NCBI GenBank assembly: GCA_022844565.1
Contig: JALHLK010000045.1
Coordinates: 1 to 40,268, forward strand
From: Saprospiraceae bacterium
GTDB lineage: Bacteria > Bacteroidota > Bacteroidia > Chitinophagales > Saprospiraceae
DNA length: 40,268 bases
Direction: 5' to 3'
Shown: positions 11,138 through 40,097 of the stretch, one piece after another
Numbering within the stretch: the first letter of the stretch is position 1
How the letters are laid out: every line of letters starts with the position of its first letter
Program-made: the position numbers and the translations under genes
Notes under the pieces: model-generated
What the model saw: only the letters and a program-made list of their open reading frames with translations
Told to the model about the DNA's origin: nothing
Databases searched by the model: none

Positions 11138-13711
11138 TTATTCCTCTTCGCCACCTTCAAGGGTACTTTCAGGCATGGTTTTATCTGTAACAATTATTTC
11201 TCCCCCTTCTATTATTGGATCTACTCCTTCTTCATCAACAATCTCCTCTACATCATTTGGATCATATCTGATTACCGCCACATCAGCTATTTTATCCTTA
11301 TCATCCAGTCTGATTACTTTTACCCCTTGAGTTGCTCTGCCACTTATTCTTACATCATTTACTTTCATCCTTATAATGATGCCTTGTTCCGTTGTGATCA
11401 TTAGGTCGTCTTCCTCTGCGACTGTTTTAATAGATACTGTTTTTCCTGTTTTCTCGGTGACGTTGAGTGTTTTAACTCCTTTTCCAGATCTGTTAGTTAT
11501 CCTATAGTCATCAAGGTTTGATCTTTTTCCATTTCCTTTTTCTGACACAATGAAGATGGTTGTTGCTTCGTTAGTCGGATCTGCAACTACCATACCTATG
11601 ATCTCGTCATCTTTGTCCTTGTCAAGCTTCATGCCTGTTACACCTGCAGCAGATCGCCCCATAGCCCTTACTTTACTTTCTGGAAATCTGATCGCTCGTC
11701 CATTCTTATTTGCAAGTAGGATGTCATTTGTACCGTTAGTAAGTTTTACCTCCATCAATTGATCACCTTCATGTATAGTAATTGCAAAAATACCATTAGC
11801 ACGAGGCCTTGAGAATGCTTCCACTATGGTTTTTTTGATCACCCCTTTCTTGGTACAGAAGATTAAGTAATTTGAATTGATAAAATCTTCATTTGTTAAG
11901 TCTTCTATCTTTATATATGCGCGTACTTTGTCATCCGCTGGAATTTGTACTAAGTTTTGGATCGTTTTACCCATGTTTGTTTTAGAGCCTTCTGGTATTT
12001 CAAACGCTCTTAACCAAAATACCCGTCCAAGTTCTGTAAAGAGAAGAATGTAATTATGATTATTAGCTATAAAAAGGTGCTCAATAAAGTCTTCGTTTCT
12101 GGTTTTGCTACCTTTTGATCCTCGGCCGCCTCTAGATTGTTGCCTATATTCGTTTAGTTTGGTTCGTTTTATGTAGCCAGCATGCGAAATTGTAATAGCA
12201 ACTTTATCATTAGGTATTAAATCTTCTATAGATATTTCATCATCTGCATAGTGTATGTCTGTTTTTCTTGCGTCTCCATACCGCTCTCTAATTTCTAGAA
12301 GCTCATCTTTTGCTATTTTTTTCTGAAGTTCTGCGCTTTCTATTATTGACTTCAAATATTCAATGGTCTTCATCAACTCATCGTATTCTGCCTTTAACTT
12401 ATCTACTTCGAGACTTACTAATCGGCTCAATCTCATTTCTAAAATCGCCTTCGCTTGAATTTCAGAAAGTTCGAAAGTTGAAATTAATTTGTCTTTCGCT
12501 TCATCAACGGTAGCACTTGTTCGGATGATCTTAATTACCTCCTCGATGTTTGCCAAAGCGATGAGTAATCCTTCTAATATATGAGCACGTTCTTCCGCCT
12601 TTTTGAGTTCAAACTTTGTACGTCTTACGATTACTTCAATTCTAAACTTAACAAACTCCGAAATAAGCTGCTTTAGATTGAGCTGTCTAGGTCGACCGTT
12701 GACCAAACAAATATTATTAACCCCATATGATGTCTGTAGTGCTGTATATTTATATAGTTTGGACAAAATCACACTTGCCATCGAATCACGCTTGATTTCT
12801 AGCACTATTCGCATTCCATTTCGATCGGATTCATCACGAGGCGATCCACTAATCCCTGTGATTTTTTCCTCTTGCATCAATTCTGCAATCTTTTCTACAA
12901 GATTGGCTTTATTTACTTGATACGGTATTTCTGTGATGATGATGGTTTCGCGTCCTTCGTGACTTGTTTCTATCGTGGCTTTACCTCTTACCACTACCTT
13001 ACCTCGACCTGTATGAAACGCTTCTTTTACTCCGCTGTATCCAAATATAGTACCTCCTGTTGGAAAATCTGGAGCTTTGATATACTCCATCAATTCGTCT
13101 ATGGTAATATCTTCGTTATCGATGTATGCAATGGTACCGTCAACAACCTCGGTCAAATTATGAGGTAACATGTTAGTGGCCATACCTACGGCTATACCCG
13201 AGGCTCCATTGATCAATAAATTGGGAACTCTTGCTGGTAGTACTGTTGGTTCTTCTAGCGTGTCGTCAAAGTTAAGTCTAAAATCTACCGTATCTTTGTC
13301 AATATCACCTAACAACTCCTCTGATAACCGCGTAAGTCTAGCTTCTGTATACCTCATAGCAGCTGGACTATCACCATCCACACTACCAAAGTTACCTTGG
13401 CCATCCACTAGTCTGTATCTTAATGACCAATCTTGGGCCATCCTTACCATTGCGTCATAAACGGAGGTGTCACCATGTGGGTGAAACTTACCCAAAACCT
13501 CTCCTACAATCCTTGCAGATTTCTTGTGTGCCTTGTTATAACCAACACCTAATTCGTTCATACCATAGAGCACCCTTCTGTGTACCGGCTTTAATCCGTC
13601 TCTAACATCTGGAAGCGCTCGCGAAACAATGACCGACATAGAATAATCTATGTAGGAAGCTTTCATTTCATCTTCGATATTTACATTTATAATTCTCTGA
13701 TTATCCGACAT
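11138..13711 (-). CDS. gyrA: DNA gyrase subunit A
   Basis: The 857-residue A subunit of DNA gyrase, which with GyrB introduces negative supercoils using ATP. Catalytic Tyr121 lies in [10 protein letters not shown]. The quinolone-resistance region reads [17 protein letters not shown], where Thr82 and Asp86 correspond to E. coli Ser83 and Asp87. The tower and coiled-coil region follows, then the C-terminal beta-pinwheel with a GyrA-box-like [10 protein letters not shown] (about residue 530) and repeated blade motifs ([36 protein letters not shown]). The GyrA-box separates it from ParC. It ends in an acidic tail. The length is normal for the phylum. gyrB is not in the window. A full promoter lies upstream, and a TPR gene follows. 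Confidence 0.98.
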
Positions 13712-23864: not shown

Positions 23865-26714
23865 ATGACATATCCTCTCCTTAATATCAAAGGCGAAGTA
23901 CATTACGACAAAACAAGTCTAGCTCTTTACGCTACAGACGCTTCTATGTATCAGATGTTGCCAAACATGGTTGTTATACCTAAAGATGAAGATGATCTAT
24001 TAAAAATTGTTGATTACGCAAGAACAAATAATTTAACCATACTCCCGAGAGGTTCTGCCACTAGTCTAGCTGGTCAAACCGTAAATTCTGGCATTGTCCT
24101 CGACTTTACTAAAAATTTTAACAAGATTGTCAATATCGATCTTGATAAAAAACAAGCAACTGTTATGCCCGGTGTAACCCGCGATCAACTCAATGTCGAA
24201 ATTGCTAAACACAATCTACACTTTGCACCCGACCCTGCTACTTCTAATCGATGTACCTTTGGAGGAATGATAGCCAATAATTCTTCTGGTACAAAATCTA
24301 TCCTTTATGGTAAAACGATAGATCATGTCATACAATTAAAGATTATGCTTTCTGATGGTACTATCTTATTTTTGAAAGACGAGGACGCAGAAAGTTACAA
24401 CGCAATTTGTCAACAAAATGATCGTGAAGGAGAAATTTACCGTAATTTCAGAGATATAATTTATAAAAACTCTTCAGAGATAGAGCATACTTACCCAAAA
24501 GTAATGAGGAGAGTCTGCGGTTATGCTTTGGATGAGTTTATATTTACAGATAGTTGGAATTTAGCAAAAGTCATCACTGGTAGTGAAGGGACTTTAGCAC
24601 TAATTTTAGAAGCGACAGTCAATTTAGAACCATTACCTAAGTTTCAAAATATGATGGTGATTCATTATGATAACAGGCACAAAGGTATAGACACTGTTGC
24701 TGAAATTGTAAAATTTGGTCCTGCTGCCGTTGAAGTATTAGACTACAATGTTCTAACCCAAAGTAAGCTCAATGCGATTACTAAAAAATACCACGAAAGT
24801 TTAATTATTGGTGAGCCCGATATCGTATTGACCGTAGAGTTTTATGGACAAACGCATGAAGAAATAAATCAAAAAGCAAGTTCTTTAAAAGAATACTTGA
24901 AAACGGTTGCCAGTGCCTATGCTTATCCATTGTACTACGAAAAAAATAAAATTAATGATGGTCTCAATCTTAGAAAAGATGGATTAGGTCTTTTAATGGG
25001 CAAAGCTGATGCACGAAAACCACAGGCATTTATTGAAGATCCCGCCATACCCTTAGAGCACTTATCAGAGTATGTCAGAAAAGTTACGCAATTTTGTGAG
25101 TATCGTGGAGTGAAAATGGTAATATACGCACACGCTAGTGTAGGTGTACTCCACATCAGGCCTTTTTTAGATTTGACAGATCCGAAAGATATTAAGCTTA
25201 TGAAAGAGATTTCGGACGAATGTTTTACATTGGTTAAAAAGTACAAAGGTTCCTGGAGTGGAGAGCATGGAGATGGTAGAAATAGAGGTCATCGTATCAA
25301 AGACTATTATGGCGAAACTATTTATGGACTATTTAAACAAATAAAAACACTTTTCGATCCCTTCCTCATGCTCAATCCAAATATCATTATCGATACTCCT
25401 CCGATGGATCAAAATCTTCGTTATGGTCCAACTTATAAAGATCAAGAATTTGAATTTGCTTACCATTATCGCAAAGATCACTCTTTTAAAGATCTTGTTC
25501 ATATGTGTTCAGGCGTAGGTGCTTGTAGGAAAACAATAGGAGGCACGATGTGTCCTAGCTACCGGGCTACGTTGGACGAAAAGGACAGCACACGAGGAAG
25601 AGCAAACATCTTAAGATTAGCTATGTCGCGACAATATGGATTTAATGACTTGGCTTCTAAAGAAGTGTTAGAGGTCATGGATTTATGCTTATCTTGCAAA
25701 GCTTGTAAAACTGAGTGCCCGTCTAATGTAGATATGGCTAAGTTAAAAAGCGAAGTGTTACAAATAAAATATGAAACCCGAGGAATGAATATGTCTGAAC
25801 GGCTACCCAAATATGCCCCAATTTTATCGAGAACATTTTCTGGCGTCTTAGCCCATTTTGTTAATTTTATACAGCATACATCGTTATTTAGATTATTATC
25901 ACATCATCTTTTTAATGTGCACAAACAGCGTATTTTACCTGACTATTCTCACCAAACTTTCGTTAATTGGGCAAAAGCAAATAATAATTTTACCAGTAAA
26001 AACAAGGTCGTTATTTTTATAGATACTTATTTAAACAATCATCAACCCGAGGTTGGTATAAAAGCAGTGAAGCTTTTAAATGATTGTGGGTACGAAGTTA
26101 TTCTCAAAGATTTAGGCTGTTGTCAAAGACCTTTAATTTCTAATGGACATTTACACAAGGCTAAAAAAGAAGGCTCTACCACCTCTGAAAACTTGCGCTT
26201 TTATTTAGATCAAAATATTCCTATTCTCACCTTCGAGCCTTCTTGCCATACTGCTTTGACAGATGACTTACCGGACTTAATTGATGATGCAGTACTCGGT
26301 CAAAAAATGTATAGTCAAATCAAAACCATCGAAGTGTTTTTAGCCGAGGAATATAAAAGTGGTCGTCTCAAAGGTAGTTTCACTTGTAAAGTAAGTTCAA
26401 TAGCTATTCACGGACATTGTCATCAAAAAGCATCGTACGGTACCGACGCAACTAAATATCTTTTAGGGCTTACTAATACAAACTTTACTGAATTAAATAC
26501 TGGGTGCTGTGGTATGGCTGGTTCTTTTGGCTATGAAAAAAAGCATTTTGATTTATCTAAAAAAATTGCTCAATCCGCATTGATACCTGGAATTGATGCT
26601 AACCCAGATGCCATCATTGTCGCTCATGGATTTAGTTGCAAACATCAGATAGCAGATTTTAGAGGTAAAGATACTATACATATTGTTGAAGTATTAGAAT
26701 TTTTGAAATTATAG
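23865..26714 (+). CDS. FAD-linked 2-hydroxyacid oxidoreductase fused to Fe-S and CCG domains
   Basis: A 949-residue fusion. Residues about 30-250 are a PCMH-type FAD-binding domain (VIPKDEDDLLKIV, TILPRGSATSLAGQ, GTFGGMIANNSSGTKS-like region). Residues 250-520 are the FAD-linked oxidase C-terminal domain. Residues about 545-625 carry two 4Fe-4S clusters (a CSGVGAC...CP set and CLSCKACKTECP). Residues about 700-949 are a GlpC/HdrD-like region with cysteine-rich CCG motifs (GCCQRPL near 750, TGCCGMAG near 880). Enzymes of this plan oxidise D-lactate, glycolate or D-2-hydroxyglutarate and feed electrons to the respiratory chain; the substrate is not fixed by the sequence. It stands alone on the plus strand between degenerate repeats. 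Confidence 0.88.
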   Translation: MTYPLLNIKGEVHYDKTSLALYATDASMYQMLPNMVVIPKDEDDLLKIVDYARTNNLTILPRGSATSLAGQTVNSGIVLDFTKNFNKIVNIDLDKKQATVMPGVTRDQLNVEIAKHNLHFAPDPATSNRCTFGGMIANNSSGTKSILYGKTIDHVIQLKIMLSDGTILFLKDEDAESYNAICQQNDREGEIYRNFRDIIYKNSSEIEHTYPKVMRRVCGYALDEFIFTDSWNLAKVITGSEGTLALILEATVNLEPLPKFQNMMVIHYDNRHKGIDTVAEIVKFGPAAVEVLDYNVLTQSKLNAITKKYHESLIIGEPDIVLTVEFYGQTHEEINQKASSLKEYLKTVASAYAYPLYYEKNKINDGLNLRKDGLGLLMGKADARKPQAFIEDPAIPLEHLSEYVRKVTQFCEYRGVKMVIYAHASVGVLHIRPFLDLTDPKDIKLMKEISDECFTLVKKYKGSWSGEHGDGRNRGHRIKDYYGETIYGLFKQIKTLFDPFLMLNPNIIIDTPPMDQNLRYGPTYKDQEFEFAYHYRKDHSFKDLVHMCSGVGACRKTIGGTMCPSYRATLDEKDSTRGRANILRLAMSRQYGFNDLASKEVLEVMDLCLSCKACKTECPSNVDMAKLKSEVLQIKYETRGMNMSERLPKYAPILSRTFSGVLAHFVNFIQHTSLFRLLSHHLFNVHKQRILPDYSHQTFVNWAKANNNFTSKNKVVIFIDTYLNNHQPEVGIKAVKLLNDCGYEVILKDLGCCQRPLISNGHLHKAKKEGSTTSENLRFYLDQNIPILTFEPSCHTALTDDLPDLIDDAVLGQKMYSQIKTIEVFLAEEYKSGRLKGSFTCKVSSIAIHGHCHQKASYGTDATKYLLGLTNTNFTELNTGCCGMAGSFGYEKKHFDLSKKIAQSALIPGIDANPDAIIVAHGFSCKHQIADFRGKDTIHIVEVLEFLKL

Positions 26715-26790: not shown

Positions 26791-27138
26791 TTATTGACTT
26801 TGATTTATCTTATCATTATTCATATGTCTATCAAAATCTCTTTTAGTTTTTTTGTCAATATTTTTCTGGAGAGCATCTTCGAGGTTTATGCCTAATTGAT
26901 TGGCTAAACACACACTTACCCATATTATGTCGGAAAGCTCATCTGCCAATGCTTCTTGTTGTTGAGATACTGTCATTGGTGTCTTGAAGGATTGTTCTCC
27001 GTAAATTCGCGCTACTAAACGGGAGAATTCGCCTACTTCTTCATTTAGTATGAGCGTATTCGTTTTTTCATCAAAATATCGAACACCAATTGTTTTTATC
27101 CAATGGTCAACTGTGGATTGTAGTTCTTTTATCTCCAT
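26791..27138 (-). CDS. MazG-like nucleotide pyrophosphohydrolase
   Basis: A 115-residue all-alpha NTP-PPase of the MazG/dUTPase-like fold. The metal-binding signature is LNEEVGEFSRLV (Glu33, Glu34, Glu37) and ADELSDIIWV (Glu67, Asp70), an EExxE...ExxD pattern. It is a single MazG-type domain, shorter than E. coli MazG (263). Relatives hydrolyse (d)NTPs to monophosphates, often as house-cleaning enzymes. It starts 8 bases after the dtd stop codon on the same strand, so the two form an operon of two quality-control enzymes. The substrate is not determined. Confidence 0.85.
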   Translation of the reverse strand: MEIKELQSTVDHWIKTIGVRYFDEKTNTLILNEEVGEFSRLVARIYGEQSFKTPMTVSQQQEALADELSDIIWVSVCLANQLGINLEDALQKNIDKKTKRDFDRHMNNDKINQSQ

Positions 27139-27146
27139 AATCGTAT

Positions 27147-27605
27147 TTATTCTTTTGTTTTTGTATCTATTATGATCGTAACTGGGCCATCATTAGTAAA
27201 GGTAATCTGCATATCAGAACCAAACTCTCCCGTAACTAAGTTTTGTTCTGAGGACAAACTTTTTTTCATTTCCACAATACAGGCCTGATAGAGTGGGATA
27301 GCTATATCCGGTTTTGCACTTCTAATAAAAGATGGGCGATTACCTTTTTTAGTTGAAGCAAATAGGGTGAATTGAGATACCAAAAGGATATCCCCTTTTA
27401 TTTCATTTAATCCTAAATTCATCTTTCCCTCTTGATCTGAAAAAATGCGCATGTTTACTATCTTTTGTGTTAACCACTCGACATCTTCTTGTGTATCATC
27501 TGTTTCAATGCCTAAGAGAACTAGAAAACCTTGTCTTATTGATCTTGTGATCGTCGAATCAATCACAATTGTTGCGCTACTTACTCTCTGAATTACTGCC
27601 CTCAT
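27147..27605 (-). CDS. dtd: D-aminoacyl-tRNA deacylase
   Basis: A 152-residue DTD, which removes D-amino acids (and glycine mischarged on tRNA-Ala) from tRNA. The family opening is MRAVIQRVSSATI. The active-site SQF (LLVSQFTLFAS), the KGNRPSF loop and the NDGPVT motif with the cross-subunit Gly-cisPro are all present, with GEFGSDMQ before it. The length is normal. The -7 box at 27613-27620 places the transcript start almost at the ATG, so the mRNA may be nearly leaderless. mazG-like follows. It is the last leftward gene before the AT-rich gap proposed as an origin. Confidence 0.95.
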   Translation of the reverse strand: MRAVIQRVSSATIVIDSTITRSIRQGFLVLLGIETDDTQEDVEWLTQKIVNMRIFSDQEGKMNLGLNEIKGDILLVSQFTLFASTKKGNRPSFIRSAKPDIAIPLYQACIVEMKKSLSSEQNLVTGEFGSDMQITFTNDGPVTIIIDTKTKE

Positions 27606-27612
27606 ATGGTTA

Positions 27613-27620
27613 CAAACATA
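27613..27620 (-). promoter_or_regulatory. -7 box for dtd
   Basis: On the minus strand this reads TATGTTTG (TAnnTTTG), ending only 7 bases before the dtd ATG at 27605. If used, the dtd-mazG message would have almost no 5' leader. Confidence 0.4.
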
Positions 27621-28063
27621 TTTATATTATTTAATATTTAATAATCAGAGTGATAAAGATATTATAAAATATGTTTTACACATAGAATTGGGTAAAAATT
27701 TGGTATAACTATTTTAGTCGGTAAATTGTGGTAAAATATATATAATAATAATAAATAATATTATGAATAACTTTATATTTCTAAACCATACTATTTTAGT
27801 AAACACATTGTAAATTTAACTGTTGATAAAAGTATTCACATGTTGAACAAAGTTGTTAGTTCCTTGATTTTTAATATGTAAATTATCTCAAATTCTTGTT
27901 TATAAAAATATTTCATTTACAATTGATAAAAACAGTTCCATATTGATAAAATCTCACTTTCAACATTTCCACAGAACTAATGATGAGTCTGTTTAATTTG
28001 AATAAAAAAAAATATCATTATTAGTTAAAATGGGAAGTTGGGAAAAAAGTTAATTTTAAAAAT

Positions 28064-28071
28064 TACTTTTG
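28064..28071 (+). promoter_or_regulatory. -7 box for the heme A synthase gene
   Basis: TACTTTTG ends 30 bases before the ATG at 28102. A TTG at 28038-28040 is a loose -33 candidate (23-base spacer). The in-frame TTG at 28069 falls in this box and is rejected as a start. Confidence 0.45.
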
Positions 28072-28101
28072 CAACATGAAAAATTTAAGATTTATAGTCA
28101 T

Positions 28102-29004
28102 ATGACATCATATAAAAAGTATACTTGGTTTATTGTAATCTTTGTTTTTTTGGTTGTTTTGGCCGGTGGCATAGTCAGGACAACACAAAGTGGCATGGGA
28201 TGTCCCGATTGGCCCAAATGTTTTGGTATGTGGATACCTCCGACTAAAGCAGAGCAATTACCTCCAGACTTTGTCAATTATCTGTCTAAACAAGATATAG
28301 ATCATACATTTAACGTATATCATACCTGGATAGAGTATATTAATCGGTTACTAGGTGCAATCTTGGGTTTATTAATTTTAATTCATTTGGCTTGGACTAT
28401 TAGACTAAGAAATGTGCTAGACAGAAGTATAATAGTTACCAGTATATTCATGTTGATCGGTGTTTTGTTTACAGCTTGGCTAGGAAAGGTGGTAGTTGAT
28501 AACAATCTTGCGGTCATGAAAGTTACGCTGCATATGCTATCTGCTTTGGTCTTAGCTATTTTGCCGCTGTTTATAATCGTAAAGTTAAATAGGAGACAGT
28601 GGTTGTCAAATAAATACTCCCTTGTTATGCCTATTGGTCTTTTAATACTCTGTTTAGTACAGCTCTATCTTGGTACAAATGTTAGAGAATCTGTTGATGA
28701 AATTTCTAAAAGTTTGAACTACGGAAGTAGGGAGCAATGGATTGATAGATTAGGCTCTGTATTTGATATACATAGAACATTTAGTTGGACCATACTATTT
28801 CTGTCTATTTATCTGTTTTATAAGAGTGGCTACGGTATTGTAGAAGGGATAATTTTAGGTTTAGTTTTATTTTTATTTGTTCTTGGTCTTTTATTTGTTT
28901 ATGCTTCTTTTCCTGCTTTTGTTCAGCCCCTACATTTACTGTCATCGATGATGTTAATAACACTAATTGCCACAGCTGTATTATCTAATTATCAAAAGGA
29001 GTAG
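28102..29004 (+). CDS. ctaA: Heme A synthase (COX15/CtaA family)
   Basis: A 300-residue integral membrane enzyme that oxidises the C8 methyl of heme O to the formyl group of heme A for cytochrome aa3-type oxidases. Eight hydrophobic segments are seen. Four heme-ligand histidine regions are present: the HTFNVYHTWIEYINR helix with its conserved Glu, TLHMLSAL, DIHRTFSW and QPLHLLSS. The first loop has GIVRTTQSGMGCPDWPKCFG, the typical COX15 signature with two cysteines. Start: the ATG at 28102, right before the first membrane segment. ctaB and the oxidase genes are not here. It runs away from the proposed origin. Confidence 0.92.
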   Translation: MTSYKKYTWFIVIFVFLVVLAGGIVRTTQSGMGCPDWPKCFGMWIPPTKAEQLPPDFVNYLSKQDIDHTFNVYHTWIEYINRLLGAILGLLILIHLAWTIRLRNVLDRSIIVTSIFMLIGVLFTAWLGKVVVDNNLAVMKVTLHMLSALVLAILPLFIIVKLNRRQWLSNKYSLVMPIGLLILCLVQLYLGTNVRESVDEISKSLNYGSREQWIDRLGSVFDIHRTFSWTILFLSIYLFYKSGYGIVEGIILGLVLFLFVLGLLFVYASFPAFVQPLHLLSSMMLITLIATAVLSNYQKE

Positions 29005-29082
29005 AGTTGTTTGTAAGTTACTATGTTAATTTGTTTATAACATTAATAAATGAATTATTTGCGCTATTATCACTCACAATAT

Positions 29083-29112
29083 TTTGATACTAAATTTGTT
29101 TATTTATATTTG
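29083..29112 (+). promoter_or_regulatory. Promoter of the alpha/beta hydrolase gene
   Basis: TTTG at 29083-29086, an 18-base spacer, and TATATTTG at 29105-29112, 22 bases before the GTG start at 29135. It indicates that the hydrolase is not solely dependent on the ctaA transcript. Confidence 0.5.
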
Positions 29113-29134
29113 CCTAATCATTAATATAATCTAA

Positions 29135-29902
29135 GTGAAACATACAATTTATAAAGAGTCTAATTTTAGTTACATTGAATCTCAACCAGGACATTCAGAG
29201 ACACCATTAATGTTGCTACATGGTTTGATGGGGGCACTAAGTAATTTTGAAACGATAGTTGATCATTTTGCGGATAAGAGAAATGTAGTTATCCCTTTGC
29301 TACCCATATTTGAGATGCCACTTTTTAAAGTAGGATTGGAAGGGTTGGTTGAATATGTTCATTCTTTTATTTTATATAAGGGTTATAAAAAGGTTCATTT
29401 ACTAGGAAATTCATTGGGAGGTCATATTTGTCAATTGGTAGCGCTACAGTATCCTGAATTGGTTCAAACCATGACGTTAACTGGTAGTAGTGGTTTGTTT
29501 GAAGCTGCAATGGGCAATAGCTTCCCAAAGCGTGGTGATATGGATTACATCAGACAGAAAACAGAGATGGTATTTTATGATCCTAAGTCCGCATCAGAAG
29601 AATTGGTTCAAGAGGTTTATGACACTGTCAATGATCTTTCTAAAGCAATTAGAATAGTCAAAACTGCAAAAAGTGCAGTGAGGCACAATTTAGAGGATAA
29701 ACTAGGTAATCTTAAGCTTCCTGTTTTGTTGGTATGGGGTAAAAATGATGAGGTTACGCCAAGTTGGGTCGGAGAGAAGTTTCATGAGCTTATTCCTAAT
29801 AGTGAGCTCCATCTTTTTGACAAATGTGGACATGTGCCTATGATGGAGCATCCTGAAATGTTTAATCAAATATTATCATCTTTTTTAATAAAGAATTCAT
29901 AA
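29135..29902 (+). CDS. Alpha/beta-fold hydrolase
   Basis: A 255-residue cytosolic hydrolase with the triad Ser93 in the nucleophile elbow GNSLGG, Asp205 in WGKNDEVTP and His233 in KCGHVPMMEHP. The oxyanion HGLMG (29-33) is typical of the esterase/MhpC-like class. The length fits. It uses a GTG start; no in-frame ATG lies between the promoter and this codon. The substrate is unknown: carboxylesters, thioesters and C-C cleavage are all possible in this family. It is the last gene before the parS pair. Confidence 0.85.
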   Translation: MKHTIYKESNFSYIESQPGHSETPLMLLHGLMGALSNFETIVDHFADKRNVVIPLLPIFEMPLFKVGLEGLVEYVHSFILYKGYKKVHLLGNSLGGHICQLVALQYPELVQTMTLTGSSGLFEAAMGNSFPKRGDMDYIRQKTEMVFYDPKSASEELVQEVYDTVNDLSKAIRIVKTAKSAVRHNLEDKLGNLKLPVLLVWGKNDEVTPSWVGEKFHELIPNSELHLFDKCGHVPMMEHPEMFNQILSSFLIKNS

Positions 29903-29948
29903 TATCTTCACCTTATTAGATAATTAGTTTTTGTTTCTTAATTAATTA

Positions 29949-29964
29949 TGTTTCACGTGAAACA
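29949..29964. promoter_or_regulatory. parS: parS centromere site 1 (ParB binding)
   Basis: TGTTTCACGTGAAACA is a perfect 16-bp palindrome (18 bp with the flanking A and T) and an exact match to the parS consensus TGTTNCACGTGAAACA known from B. subtilis and conserved across phyla. ParB loads here as a CTP-dependent clamp and works with ParA and SMC in origin segregation. Chance occurrence of a 16-mer in one window is negligible. Confidence 0.93.
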
Positions 29965-30005
29965 TGATTTTAATGATATTTAGTAGGCTTTAGTTTTTAA
30001 TAGGG

Positions 30006-30021
30006 TGTTCCACGTGGAACA
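30006..30021. promoter_or_regulatory. parS: parS centromere site 2 (ParB binding)
   Basis: TGTTCCACGTGGAACA is a perfect 16-bp palindrome. It matches the parS consensus TGTTNCACGTGAAACA except for G where the downstream half has A, giving the fully symmetric C/G variant. Its centre is 57 bp from that of site 1, and paired sites of this kind raise confidence in both. Confidence 0.88.
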
Positions 30022-35510: not shown

Positions 35511-38500
35511 ATGAAAAAATTCTACTTTGTTTTTATGTGGATTCTAATACCAGCACTTCTATCTGCTCAGTCTAGAGAAGTGAAGGGATTGGTCCTTTCG
35601 ACAACCCAAGATCCATTGATCGGGGTTTCAGTTTTTGTAAAAGGTACCACGACAGGTACGGTTACAGATGTTGATGGTAATTATTCTTTAAGTGTACCTA
35701 GTAATGCTTCTACATTGGTTTTTAGCTTTATTGGACACAAAAGCCTAGAAGTTGCTTTAGGCAATCAAAGTATCGTTAATGCAACATTAGAAGAAGACCA
35801 AGTCAACTTGAATGAAATTGTTGTAACAGCCAATGCAATCGCTAGGGAAAGAAAAGAACTTGGTTACTCTGTAGCAACCATCAAAGGTGACGAGTTTTTG
35901 AAGGCGCGAGAAACCAATATTGTCAACTCCATGGCTGGCAAGATAGCAGGGGTAAGGATAGCACAACAATCTGGTACAGTAGGTGGTTCTTCTAGAATTA
36001 TGATCAGGGGTGCAAACTCCATATCTTCATCAAGCGAACCTCTTTTTGTAGTCGATGGAGTACCTATTTCAAACTCTTCATTCAATAATTCAGAAACGGA
36101 TATCGTGACGGGTGGTGTAGATGTGGGAAACAGGGCTAGTGACATCAATCCAGATGATATCGAAAGTATGACTGTACTAAAAGGAGCAGCTGCATCTGCA
36201 TTATATGGCTCTAGAGCACGAAATGGAGTAATCGTTTTGACAACCAAAAAAGGTAAACCGAGTACAAATGGCAAAAAAACCAACGTTACGCTCAATTCTT
36301 CATTTAGGACAGACAACATATTTAGATTACCACAAATACAAAGTGAATATGCACAAGGCAATCTAGGTGTGTACAACCCACAGTTGGCAAATGGATGGGG
36401 ACCGAAGATTAGTTCTTTTACGGGTCCCGTAACAGATTATAAAGGGGTATCATCCACTTTAGAAGGTCATCCAGATAATTGGAAAAACTTTTATGTCACA
36501 GGGAGTACGTACATCAATTCTATTTCATTTGATGGAGCGAGTGAAAATACGGATTACCGTGTGAGTTACACCAACTTATCTCAGACGGGTATTGTACCTA
36601 ACTCAGAACTTGGTAGAAACACACTTTCTTTCAACGGTGGCTCAAAAATCACGGATAAATTAAAGTCTAGACTATGGATGAACTATGTTCGTACTACCAG
36701 TGATGGTCGCCCGGCCCAAGGTTCTAACACTACAAATATTATCCCGACAATCTTGACATCATTGCCCGCTACGATAGATATCAATGAACTAAAAGAAAAC
36801 TTATTTGCACCAACAACACAGTCTTTCCCGTCAGGATTCATCGGCGATGTAGCAATGGCTATAGATTTAAATGGTGTGCAGAATAATCCTTACTTCGTTA
36901 CAGAGTTTAATCGTTTTTCTAATATTGTAGACCGTCTTTATGGAGGAACAAGTCTTGAATATGAAGTAGCACCTTGGTTTAATCTATTAGGCCGAGTAGG
37001 TACAGATTATTTTGCAGAGAATAGAAGGTCTGTAACTAGAAAGGGCACAAGAGGAAGATTAAATGGTCAGTTTGACACTAATGATATATTCGAACGAGAG
37101 TTTCAAACGGATTTGATCGGTAGTTTTAGTTTCAAGTTGAACGATGATTTAAGCCTTAAAGCGATAGTAGGCCATCAGTTTAATCAAAGAACGATAAGAA
37201 GATCGCGGGTTTTCTCCGAAGGGCTCAATATTGATCAATTGTATACTTTTGCAAATGCTCAGTCAAACGTACCTTCCAACTTTACAAGTAAAAGAGAAAT
37301 ATTCGGTGCTTATGGAGACTTGAGTTTAAACTACAAAAATTTTGCCTTCTTAAATGTAACAGGACGTAACGATTGGAGTTCCACATTACCGGTGGCAAAC
37401 AATTCTTATTTTTATCCATCTACAAGTTTATCCCTATTATTAACAGAGGCGTTTCCTAAATTAAAGGGAAACATCATGAATTATGCAAAAGTTAGAGCGA
37501 ATGTGGCCAATGTAGGTAGTGACGAAGATCCATATCAGCTATCATTTACATACAACCCATTGAGTCAAGCAAGTGATATATATACATTTAATTTATTATT
37601 TCCTTTCAACGGAGCATCTGCTTTTGCGGCTACGAACGTGTTGCCTCCAACAAATCTACTTCCACAAAGGCAAACATCTTACGAAGGAGGAGGTGAATTT
37701 AGCTTTTTTGATAGTAGAATAAACTTAGACATTACGGCATATAAAAATATCAACTACGATCAGATCATATCCATTGCGATACCGCAAAGTACAGGATACT
37801 CTGCACGTAGATTGAATGTTGGTCAAATTTCTAACAGAGGTATAGAAGCCCTACTTTCTTTTAACCCTATACGTACGAAGTCAGGATTTAATTGGGATAT
37901 TGCTTTCAACTTTAATAGAAACATCAATAGAGTAGATAAGTTAGCGGAAGGACTTCAAGAGTTTATCATTACTTCGGGTGATGGCTTTGGGATATTCATT
38001 GCAGCTAGACCAGGAGAAACATTTAATATTCAAGGAGTAGGTTGGCTGAGAGACGATAAAGGAAACTTTGTAATAAATCCATCAACAGGTCTTAGAATAC
38101 CAGGTCCAAGAAAACTATTAGGGAATATATATCCTGATTGGATTATGGGAATCAACAATTCATTCGGCTACAAGAACTTTAATTTCAGCTTTTTGGTAGA
38201 TATAAGAGAAGGTGGAGTGATAAATTCTCAAACGGTGAGTATTTTAAGAGGTTCAGGTAATGCCATAGAAACGACAGAAAACAACCGAACACCATTTATA
38301 GATGAAGGGGTCGTGAGAAATGCAGATGGCACTTTTAGCCCGAACACAAGACCGGTTGCATCTATTCAACAGTTTTATGGTAACTCAGATAATTCTACTA
38401 GTCCAGAAAACAATACCTTCGATGCTTCGTTTATAAAGTTGAGAGAAATTCGATTTTCCTACTCTATTCCAAGCAAAACGTTAAAAAACCTACCAATAGG

Positions 38501-38672
38501 TAATGCAAGTATCGCTTTGGAAGGTAGGAATTTAGCACTTTTAAGCTCACATGTGCCTCACATTGATCCTGAGAGCAACGTTTTAGGACCAGGATTGATC
38601 GGTGAAGGTCTAGAAAGAGGAAGTGTACCATCTACGAGATCCCTTGGTTTAAATTTAAGAATCACATTTTAA
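35511..38672 (+). CDS. SusC/RagA-type TonB-dependent outer membrane receptor
   Basis: A 1053-residue outer membrane transporter. A signal peptide (1-20) precedes a carboxypeptidase-regulatory-like beta domain (about 22-97: VKGLVLSTTQDPLIGVSVFV, GTVTDVDGNYSL), then the NEIVVTANA stretch and the plug (about 108-250), which carries the SusC-specific MIRGANSISSSSEPLFVVDGVPI and DIESMTVLKGAAASALYGSRARNGVI. The 22-strand barrel ends in LRITF with terminal Phe. It pairs with the SusD gene 12 bases downstream to import a glycan or peptide through TonB. No glycosidase, SusE/F, ECF sigma/anti-sigma or hybrid sensor gene lies in this window, so the substrate cannot be inferred. Confidence 0.95.
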   Translation: MKKFYFVFMWILIPALLSAQSREVKGLVLSTTQDPLIGVSVFVKGTTTGTVTDVDGNYSLSVPSNASTLVFSFIGHKSLEVALGNQSIVNATLEEDQVNLNEIVVTANAIARERKELGYSVATIKGDEFLKARETNIVNSMAGKIAGVRIAQQSGTVGGSSRIMIRGANSISSSSEPLFVVDGVPISNSSFNNSETDIVTGGVDVGNRASDINPDDIESMTVLKGAAASALYGSRARNGVIVLTTKKGKPSTNGKKTNVTLNSSFRTDNIFRLPQIQSEYAQGNLGVYNPQLANGWGPKISSFTGPVTDYKGVSSTLEGHPDNWKNFYVTGSTYINSISFDGASENTDYRVSYTNLSQTGIVPNSELGRNTLSFNGGSKITDKLKSRLWMNYVRTTSDGRPAQGSNTTNIIPTILTSLPATIDINELKENLFAPTTQSFPSGFIGDVAMAIDLNGVQNNPYFVTEFNRFSNIVDRLYGGTSLEYEVAPWFNLLGRVGTDYFAENRRSVTRKGTRGRLNGQFDTNDIFEREFQTDLIGSFSFKLNDDLSLKAIVGHQFNQRTIRRSRVFSEGLNIDQLYTFANAQSNVPSNFTSKREIFGAYGDLSLNYKNFAFLNVTGRNDWSSTLPVANNSYFYPSTSLSLLLTEAFPKLKGNIMNYAKVRANVANVGSDEDPYQLSFTYNPLSQASDIYTFNLLFPFNGASAFAATNVLPPTNLLPQRQTSYEGGGEFSFFDSRINLDITAYKNINYDQIISIAIPQSTGYSARRLNVGQISNRGIEALLSFNPIRTKSGFNWDIAFNFNRNINRVDKLAEGLQEFIITSGDGFGIFIAARPGETFNIQGVGWLRDDKGNFVINPSTGLRIPGPRKLLGNIYPDWIMGINNSFGYKNFNFSFLVDIREGGVINSQTVSILRGSGNAIETTENNRTPFIDEGVVRNADGTFSPNTRPVASIQQFYGNSDNSTSPENNTFDASFIKLREIRFSYSIPSKTLKNLPIGNASIALEGRNLALLSSHVPHIDPESNVLGPGLIGEGLERGSVPSTRSLGLNLRITF

Positions 38673-38684
38673 ATATATTAAGAC

Positions 38685-40097
38685 ATGAAAAAATTATTAT
38701 TCGCTTTAGTCCTTATGTTAAGCCTTAATGCCTGTTTTCAAGACAGTGACATCAACATAGACCCAAATAGATCCACTACGGTAGATCCATCACTTTTGTT
38801 TGCGGGTGCAGCAACAAATCTTTCTTTACTGCGCGTGGCAGAATTGACTTGGCCCGTAGCTCTAGGAAGCCAAATGTGGGCTTCAGGCGGTAGATGGGGC
38901 TTATCTCAAGCCAACTACGATCAGACTAGGATTCGTAGTGCGTGGGGTAAAACATATACAGATATACTAAAAAACCTCAATGTGGCCCAAGAATTATTGG
39001 AGACATCAGCCGCTCCAAATAATAATTCAATAGCACAGATTAAAATTCTGAAGGCATTTACATTCTCACAAACGACTTTTCTTTGGGGTGATATACCGTT
39101 TTCAGAAGCTGCTACAGGTAAAGTTGATTTTCCAAAATTTGACCCACAAGTTGATGTTTTAAACGGATGTGTAAAACTACTCAATGAGGCAATTGCGAGC
39201 ATCGATGAAAAAGGTAAAGGAATAATAGCTCCTAATGATTTGTACTATGCAGGTGACATGGCAAAATGGAAAAAATTTGCAAACTCACTTAAGTTAAGAA
39301 TCCTTTTTGCAATGGTAGATAGCGATCCATCTAAAGGTAGCGAGATCGGAGCAATCGTAGCAGCTAATAGTGCTATCAGCTCTTTAGCGGATAACATGCA
39401 ATTTAAGTATTTTAACCAGCCAGGAAGGCAGAATCCAAGATTCTCATTCACGGCTATATTTAGAGGAGGTGTACAGTCAGATTGGTACTGCTCAAAACCG
39501 GTGTATGACATGTTGGTAGAGCTAAAAGACCCAAGAGTGCCTTATTTTTTCCAAGTTGGTCCTGCTGCAGCACCAAATGAATTCATCGCACTTACTTCCA
39601 CAGAGAATTTTACCACTAAATCATCATTGGTTCATTTAAACTTACTAAAGCCTGATCTTCCTGAAGTATCATTTTCTTATAGTGAGCAATTATTATTTGA
39701 GGCAGAAGCTATAGCAAGAGGTTTTGCTCCGGGTGGATTTGATGCAGCTACTACAAGGCTTAAAAAAGGAGTAGAAGAGTCTCTAAAGTCTTTTGGCGTA
39801 CCTGCAGCTGAAGCAACAACGTATGCAAACTCCCTTCCTGCACTAACAAGTGCAAACTTCAAAAAAGTGATCGCTCAACAGCAGTACCTTGACCTATTTA
39901 TGAGACCTGTCGAAGGATGGACACAAAATAGAAGATCAGGAGATGCAGCCAACGAGATACCAAAATTGGCTACTCCACCTGCTGCACCGGTACAAGGCTT
40001 GTTTAGAAGAGTTTTATACAGAAATGAAGAAGTAAACTCTAATCCTAACACACCAAAAGGGGTAAATATCGATACTCCGATGTGGTTTGATAAGTAG
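38685..40097 (+). CDS. SusD/RagB-family outer membrane lipoprotein (SusD-like_2 type)
   Basis: A 470-residue surface lipoprotein. The lipobox LNAC sets Cys17 as the acylated residue, followed by FQDSDINIDPN. The region TTVDPSLLFAGAATNL and the DILKNLNVAQELLE, AFTFSQTTFLWGDIPFSEA and DMAKWKKFANSLKLRILF segments are typical of SusD homologs of the SusD-like_2 group. The C-terminal GWTQNRRSGDAANEIPKL stretch is the usual W-rich substrate-face region. It forms the lid of the SusC channel and binds the nutrient outside the cell. It is the last gene of the operon, with a terminator 33 bases on. Confidence 0.94.
   Translation: MKKLLFALVLMLSLNACFQDSDINIDPNRSTTVDPSLLFAGAATNLSLLRVAELTWPVALGSQMWASGGRWGLSQANYDQTRIRSAWGKTYTDILKNLNVAQELLETSAAPNNNSIAQIKILKAFTFSQTTFLWGDIPFSEAATGKVDFPKFDPQVDVLNGCVKLLNEAIASIDEKGKGIIAPNDLYYAGDMAKWKKFANSLKLRILFAMVDSDPSKGSEIGAIVAANSAISSLADNMQFKYFNQPGRQNPRFSFTAIFRGGVQSDWYCSKPVYDMLVELKDPRVPYFFQVGPAAAPNEFIALTSTENFTTKSSLVHLNLLKPDLPEVSFSYSEQLLFEAEAIARGFAPGGFDAATTRLKKGVEESLKSFGVPAAEATTYANSLPALTSANFKKVIAQQQYLDLFMRPVEGWTQNRRSGDAANEIPKLATPPAAPVQGLFRRVLYRNEEVNSNPNTPKGVNIDTPMWFDK

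Follow-up and report, generated by a model that had tools for sequence, protein, structure and literature searches.

Does the AT-rich gap between dtd and ctaA on a Saprospiraceae contig contain the replication origin of the chromosome, and do the two parS sites beside it mark the centromere? The question goes back to a preliminary description of the contig, which had placed oriC at or near 27.6-28.1 kb. The stretch analyzed here (referred to as the window, with positions counted from its first base) is one complete contig, C45, of 40,268 bases, derived from the draft genome of an uncultured bacterium (5.59 Mb, 102 unplaced contigs); the top named match of its ctaA protein, among the matches listed, was that of a Saprospiraceae MAG (L021). 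Judging by homology and position, we consider it very probable that the chromosome starts its replication in the gap at 27606-28080 and has its centromere at the parS pair. The proposed location is supported by synteny, by a conserved core element, and by the occurrence of this core at or near the GC skew minimum in near-complete genomes of relatives.

The parS pair and its gene neighborhood

Clusters of parS were reportedly located near oriC by Livny in 2007. Both palindromic sites that had been described in the window as lying 57 bp apart were recovered, parS 1 (TGTTTCACGTGAAACA) at 29949-29964 and parS 2 (TGTTCCACGTGGAACA) at 30006-30021. As is typical of chromosomal parS, they match the 16-bp consensus and are clustered, with 57 bp from start to start, and they are found 2 kb from the dtd-ctaA gap. 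The exact sequence TGTTYCACGTGRAACA is present in the 5.59-Mb genome at these two sites only (reversed-pattern control, 0). Exactly two parS sites, 37-59 bp apart from start to start, were detected in each of the six genomes of the genus, that of the window included, while in a family sample of 150 genomes at least one exact site was present in 116 and none in 34, the reversed control being matched in a single genome. According to the excerpted text of PMC10197239, 16-mers of the consensus type cluster beside the origin in ParABS systems. The window resembles these systems in that consensus 16-mers are clustered at the proposed origin, and differs from them in that parA and parB do not adjoin parS and the exact sites are only two. 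One draft contig (G101:C333:3) begins at a parS site, i.e. it ends in or by the proposed origin region.

The list of open reading frames of the window, inspected by eye, revealed no recognisable dnaA, parA, parB or plasmid rep gene. Profile searches assigned the DnaA match of the genome to contig C10 and its single ParB match to contig C5, in agreement with the earlier remark that dnaA and parAB are missing from the window; the protein encoded on C5 is the candidate ParB that would bind the parS pair. The gap itself is flanked by dtd, coding for D-Tyr-tRNA deacylase (27147-27605, minus strand, PF02580), and by the cytochrome oxidase assembly gene ctaA/COX15 (28081-29004, plus strand, PF02628). 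A MazG-type nucleotide pyrophosphohydrolase gene (26791-27138, minus strand, PF03819) is the next conserved neighbor on the dtd side, and an alpha/beta hydrolase gene (29135-29902, plus strand, PF00561) is situated between ctaA and parS. The window also includes gyrA (11138-13711, PF00521), some 14 kb away from the candidate oriC, and, at 35511-40097, two adjoining large genes that resemble a SusC/SusD-type outer-membrane pair.

In a sample of 80 ctaA-bearing loci, dtd was present within the examined stretch of seven, all of them labelled Saprospiraceae and all with mazG, dtd, the gap and ctaA in this order, dtd and ctaA being separated by an additional 1 kb or so in one of them (L034). The hydrolase gene accompanied them in six of these seven loci, and exact parS was found in the examined stretch of four. 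At a locus labelled Saprospirales (L037), where the sequence starts near ctaA and does not cover the dtd side, a parS pair is present. No dtd was detected at loci labelled Chitinophagaceae, Cytophagales or Flavobacteriales, though some of these end near ctaA. Comparison with related genomes, which the preliminary description had put forward as a check, therefore showed that both gene order and gap are kept in relatives. At L103, L107, L113, L117 and L125, the window's ctaA gave no tblastn match to the gene opposite dtd across the gap; the frame of this gene looks COX15-like by eye, and the kind of neighbor may persist with the gene differing.

An integrated plasmid or the partition locus of a second replicon, rather than a chromosomal origin, would be compatible with parS sites that have no adjoining parAB and with the presence of 102 unplaced contigs. 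However, this reading is opposed by the above-mentioned absence of recognisable dnaA, parA, parB and plasmid rep genes from the window's reading frames, by gyrA on the same contig, by the single ParB match in the genome, and by a neighborhood conserved across a family, and we regard it as extremely improbable.

DnaA-like boxes in the gap

The AT-rich gap of about 0.5 kb between divergent genes, previously noted about 2 kb to the left of parS, is indeed present: it measures 475 bp and has a GC content of 0.20 as compared with 0.356 for the window. Its composition and the syntenic gap in relatives make it the candidate oriC. DnaA-like boxes are scattered over its length, namely TTTTACACA (27674-27682, plus strand), TTATTCATA (27762-27770, minus strand, one mismatch), TTATCAACA (27821-27829, minus strand), GTATTCACA (27832-27840, plus strand), TTATAAACA (27897-27905, minus strand, one mismatch), and TTATTCAAA (27997-28005, minus strand, one mismatch). 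The preliminary description had counted one exact box and four with one mismatch. The exact one was not confirmed, as the gap contains no TTATNCACA, and a single site is exact under the looser motif TTWTNCACA only, which was also present in 73 of 500 shuffled sequences. The one-mismatch boxes number six, against a shuffle mean of 1.47, a count reached in none of 500 dinucleotide shuffles. Over the whole window, there was no enrichment of one-mismatch boxes (56 found versus 61 expected). The gap thus contains a DnaA-box cluster in AT-rich intergenic DNA, as expected of an oriC, albeit one without an exact TTATNCACA. A block around TTATCAACA could be aligned across five gaps of the genus, as could the core block described below.

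A conserved core element

Two features of the gap had been overlooked in the preliminary description: tandem DnaA-like boxes and a DnaA-trio-like repeat, which together occupy 27957-27985. The upstream box, CTTTCAACA (27957-27965, plus strand), recognized from its sequence and from alignment with relatives, has three mismatches to TTATCCACA; the downstream box, ATTTCCACA (27965-27973, plus strand), has two and shares one base with the former. The repeat CTA ATG ATG follows at 27977-27985 on the plus strand, the other strand reading 3'-GAT TAC TAC-5', and was identified by the rule given in PMC8287927 (excerpted text).

The arrangement is reminiscent of the basal unwinding system (BUS), as presented in the excerpts of PMC8287927, PMC6669920 and PMC10721633, in that both comprise tandem boxes, a short spacer and at least three trios with a middle A. 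The rule in the excerpt of PMC8287927 requires three or more 3'-NAN-5' trios at a distance of 0-16 bp from a DnaA box with up to two mismatches; according to the same text, 3'-GAT-5' is the trio most often found beside the box, and the boxes are tandem in 57%. The box, spacing and trios of this rule are found at 27965-27985. Since the rule applies at 63 sites in the window, six of them in the gap with 27965-27985 among these, it means little when used so loosely, and it was dropped as an origin marker for want of specificity. A stricter form, with tandem boxes and 3'-GAT-5' as the first trio, which is the common form of BUS and is not demanded by the published rule, has a single site in the 40-kb window, at 27957-27985. 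The first trio of the window is like that of BUS, and so is the distance of 11 bp between the upstream box and the trios, the peak in the published excerpt being 10-13 bp for the better-matching box. The window differs in that its better-matching box is the downstream one, only 3 bp from the trios, both boxes being weak. Moreover, the second box starts here 8 bp after the first, with one base in common.

When the gaps of relatives were compared, a common block emerged, in which a DnaA box resembling TTATCCACG is followed by a second one and, after a spacer of about three bases, by CTA ATR ATR. Thirty-five copies of this core, the window's included, were aligned without internal gaps; the copy from L108, which was used in the model R1 (see below), requires one extra base and is not among the 35. 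Spacing of the boxes by 8 bp from start to start was the best in 27 copies and tied for best in seven, three or more trios with a middle A are present in every one of the 35, and the first trio is CTA (3'-GAT-5') in 23, CTG in ten and another one in two. At L157 (G084) and at G153:C1:378292-378326, the boxes of the core likewise share one base (TTATCCACTTATCCAC), their starts being 8 bp apart. In one further genome of the genus (G004; L205, G004:C91:1-98) the contig starts just before ctaA, and the gap is therefore absent from the assembly contig.

A profile built from 16 copies, one of them from the same genus and none from the window, matched the window at 27952-27999 on the plus strand with an E value of 4.8e-5, the first rank in the window, the next match having an E value of 0.57. 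R1, a model of 15 core copies with the genus of the window left out, gave the window's copy a score of 11.1 bits (E value of 2.8) and only the 19th rank among 26 matches in its genome, and it is therefore the position that carries the claim in the window: about 2e-4 matches as good as this one would be expected inside the gap (475 of 5.59 million bases), which does not amount to a genome-wide discovery. The Rfam database yielded no match for the window.

The low score under the genus-free R1 is what one might expect if an ancestral origin in the gap had decayed in the source species and the active one had moved elsewhere. The core of G003, a genome of the same genus, is degenerate, and the element and dtd have parted in other lineages, both of which are in line with such decay. 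Against it, the parS pair still adjoins the gap and is present nowhere else in the genome, and the second block with a DnaA box can be aligned among genomes of the genus; we consider a decayed origin to be very unlikely.

Distribution of the core in the family

We searched 150 genomes of the family with R1 at E values up to 0.01, with strict filters that lose weak matches. The model matched 76 genomes, 73 of them once and three twice, and gave no match in the other 74; profile scans near parS revealed the element in two genomes outside the R1 matches, G153 and G151. The best match was situated not more than 5 kb from dtd in 43 of the 76 genomes, at least ten of which had supplied a training copy, and with one exception (G089) the element was upstream of dtd on the opposite strand (42 of 43). 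Since the training copies of R1 were all taken from upstream of dtd, the remaining 33 genomes constitute a fresh test of its link with parS. Exact parS was present in 27 of them and absent from six; in 17 of the 27 it resided on the contig of the element, 1.6-27 kb away, and in ten on another contig, while random placement of the element would bring only 0.28 of the 27 so close to a parS cluster (the limit of 27 kb being taken from the data). In G084, dtd is 214 kb from the element, and the moved dtd is not at the origin.

A class-wide model, R2, was applied to 295 genomes at E values up to 0.001 and matched 17, one of these matches being circular, as the window is part of the model. Four came from a further family within the order (f20), all with short reading frames of 33-92 codons over their centers. 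Of the other twelve, ten are centered on frames of 353-987 codons and appear chance-like, and two on shorter frames of 51 and 123 codons; extension of the element to the class was dropped.

GC skew in the window and in relatives

A reversal of skew across the gap had been inferred from hand counts on plus-strand samples (46 G/68 C at 24001-24300 and 63 G/39 C at 29161-29460). The counts proved exact on recount, but as evidence the reversal is weak, since the cumulative G-C minimum of the window falls at 23 kb and not at 28 kb. At fourfold sites, the skew of plus-strand genes changed from -0.38 on the left to +0.03 on the right (p = 2e-7), and that of minus-strand genes showed no shift (+0.07 to 0.00, p = 0.50). 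No local skew minimum was seen at the element in the window or in the genus contigs of G002 and G003, and local skew was dropped as an origin locator in all three because it was too noisy.

In G089, a single contig of 7.5 Mb, the sampled skew was negative at 0-2.343 and 6.2-7.0 Mb and positive at 2.343-5.8 Mb. The element, at 2,348,915-2,348,949, falls within the very 1-kb bin that contains the local cumulative minimum (bin end, 2.349 Mb). The same holds for G084, where the bin with the local minimum ends at 2.053 Mb and the element occupies 2,052,320-2,052,362; the samples were mostly negative before the minimum and mostly positive after it, with exceptions at 0.25, 1.83 and 3.0 Mb. The element was 14 kb from the local minimum in G153 (minimum 364,000; element 378,292-378,326; parS 346,304; dtd 576 kb) and 20 kb from it in G151 (minimum 3,824,000; element 3,804,445; parS 3,794,660-3,798,915), for which the skew was computed over 3.76-3.84 Mb plus three further samples. 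In G069, where the element adjoins dtd as it does in the window and the contig ends 36 kb beyond, the minimum within the 76 kb examined was at 1,210,000 and the element at 1,222,133 (12 kb off). Two genomes from another family of the order were analyzed as well: in G055 the minimum (1,346,000) was 16 kb from the element (1,330,409) and 1 kb from parS (1,347,048), and in G284 the minimum (3,652,000) was 59 kb from the element (3,710,867), the sampled skew flipping sign repeatedly at 3.63-3.71 Mb and one sample, taken at the contig start, running against the trend.

These data bear on the possibility that the region is a centromere only, the origin lying tens of kb away and the AT-rich gap serving as a divergent promoter. 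The noisy local skew of the window would be compatible with it, as would the position of the skew minimum of G055, close to parS and not to the element, and the distances between parS and the element of 15 kb in G089 and 32 kb in G153, which indicate that the origin cannot be placed from parS alone. Unlike a dtd/ctaA promoter, however, the element keeps its form away from dtd (in G084, G153 and the 33 R1 genomes mentioned above) and falls in one 1-kb bin together with the local skew minimum in G089 and G084. We therefore deem a mere centromere unlikely, and retain the gap as the probable origin.

Position of dnaA

The initiator gene dnaA frequently serves as a stand-in for the origin. The main contigs of three near-complete genomes, G084, G089 and G151, look as if they had been rotated to dnaA, with 1.2-1.5 kb separating their starts from the DnaA match. 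At these contig starts (G084:C1, G089:C1 and G151:C1; loci L182, L131), dnaA is megabases from both the local skew minimum and the element. The distance between element and dnaA is about 2.05 Mb in G084, 2.35 Mb in G089, 3.80 Mb in G151, and 1.2 Mb in G153 if its 7.31-Mb contig, with the DnaA match at 6.49 Mb, is circular. The preliminary description found an origin without dnaA unfamiliar. The absence of dnaA stands. According to the excerpt of PMC4755523, oriC is commonly remote from dnaA in Bacteroidetes, which makes the arrangement of the window less strange, and the excerpted PMC10197239 warns against taking dnaA as the mark of the origin. Because it is in print in these sources, the general point that oriC may be located away from dnaA is already known.

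Discussion

The proposed origin resembles the oriC of Prevotella intermedia, as excerpted from PMC4755523, in having DnaA boxes and dnaA elsewhere. The origin of P. intermedia is skew-defined, and here the homologous element is at or near the local skew minimum in several relatives. The excerpt concerns one species, an Ori-Finder prediction and a general remark on the phylum drawn from DoriC, whereas here a conserved core and its neighborhood were traced through a family. No paper on a Saprospiraceae origin was found among the matches listed in the open-licence literature. The gap is a probable oriC of a known kind; its place and its conserved core in Saprospiraceae are defined here, and the core is worth reporting for this family.

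By analogy with published BUS, from which the loading of DnaA on the trio strand is taken, one may envisage how such an origin would operate in the source organism. DnaA, produced from a gene elsewhere, would bind both the tandem boxes (27957-27973) and those scattered over the gap, and would then load as a filament onto the strand bearing the trio repeat at 27977-27985, the filament melting the adjoining AT-rich DNA and thus permitting entry of the helicase. ParB, also encoded elsewhere, would load at both parS sites, and the freshly copied origins would be moved apart.

A broader hypothesis, to which we give an even chance, is that Saprospiraceae have a lineage-specific core of fixed geometry (two boxes sharing a base, followed by CTA-ATR-ATR) that stays with parS while the flanks and dnaA change, so that the core and parS, and not dnaA, define the origin. 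As the sequences of G084, G089 and G151 begin at dnaA, megabases from the element, growth-rate, gene-dosage and strand analyses based on dnaA would be wrong in these genomes. The core element itself offers a marker that points directly to the origin and can be tested, in a family known here mostly from drafts. If the hypothesis is true, the core and parS together could place origins even in draft genomes.
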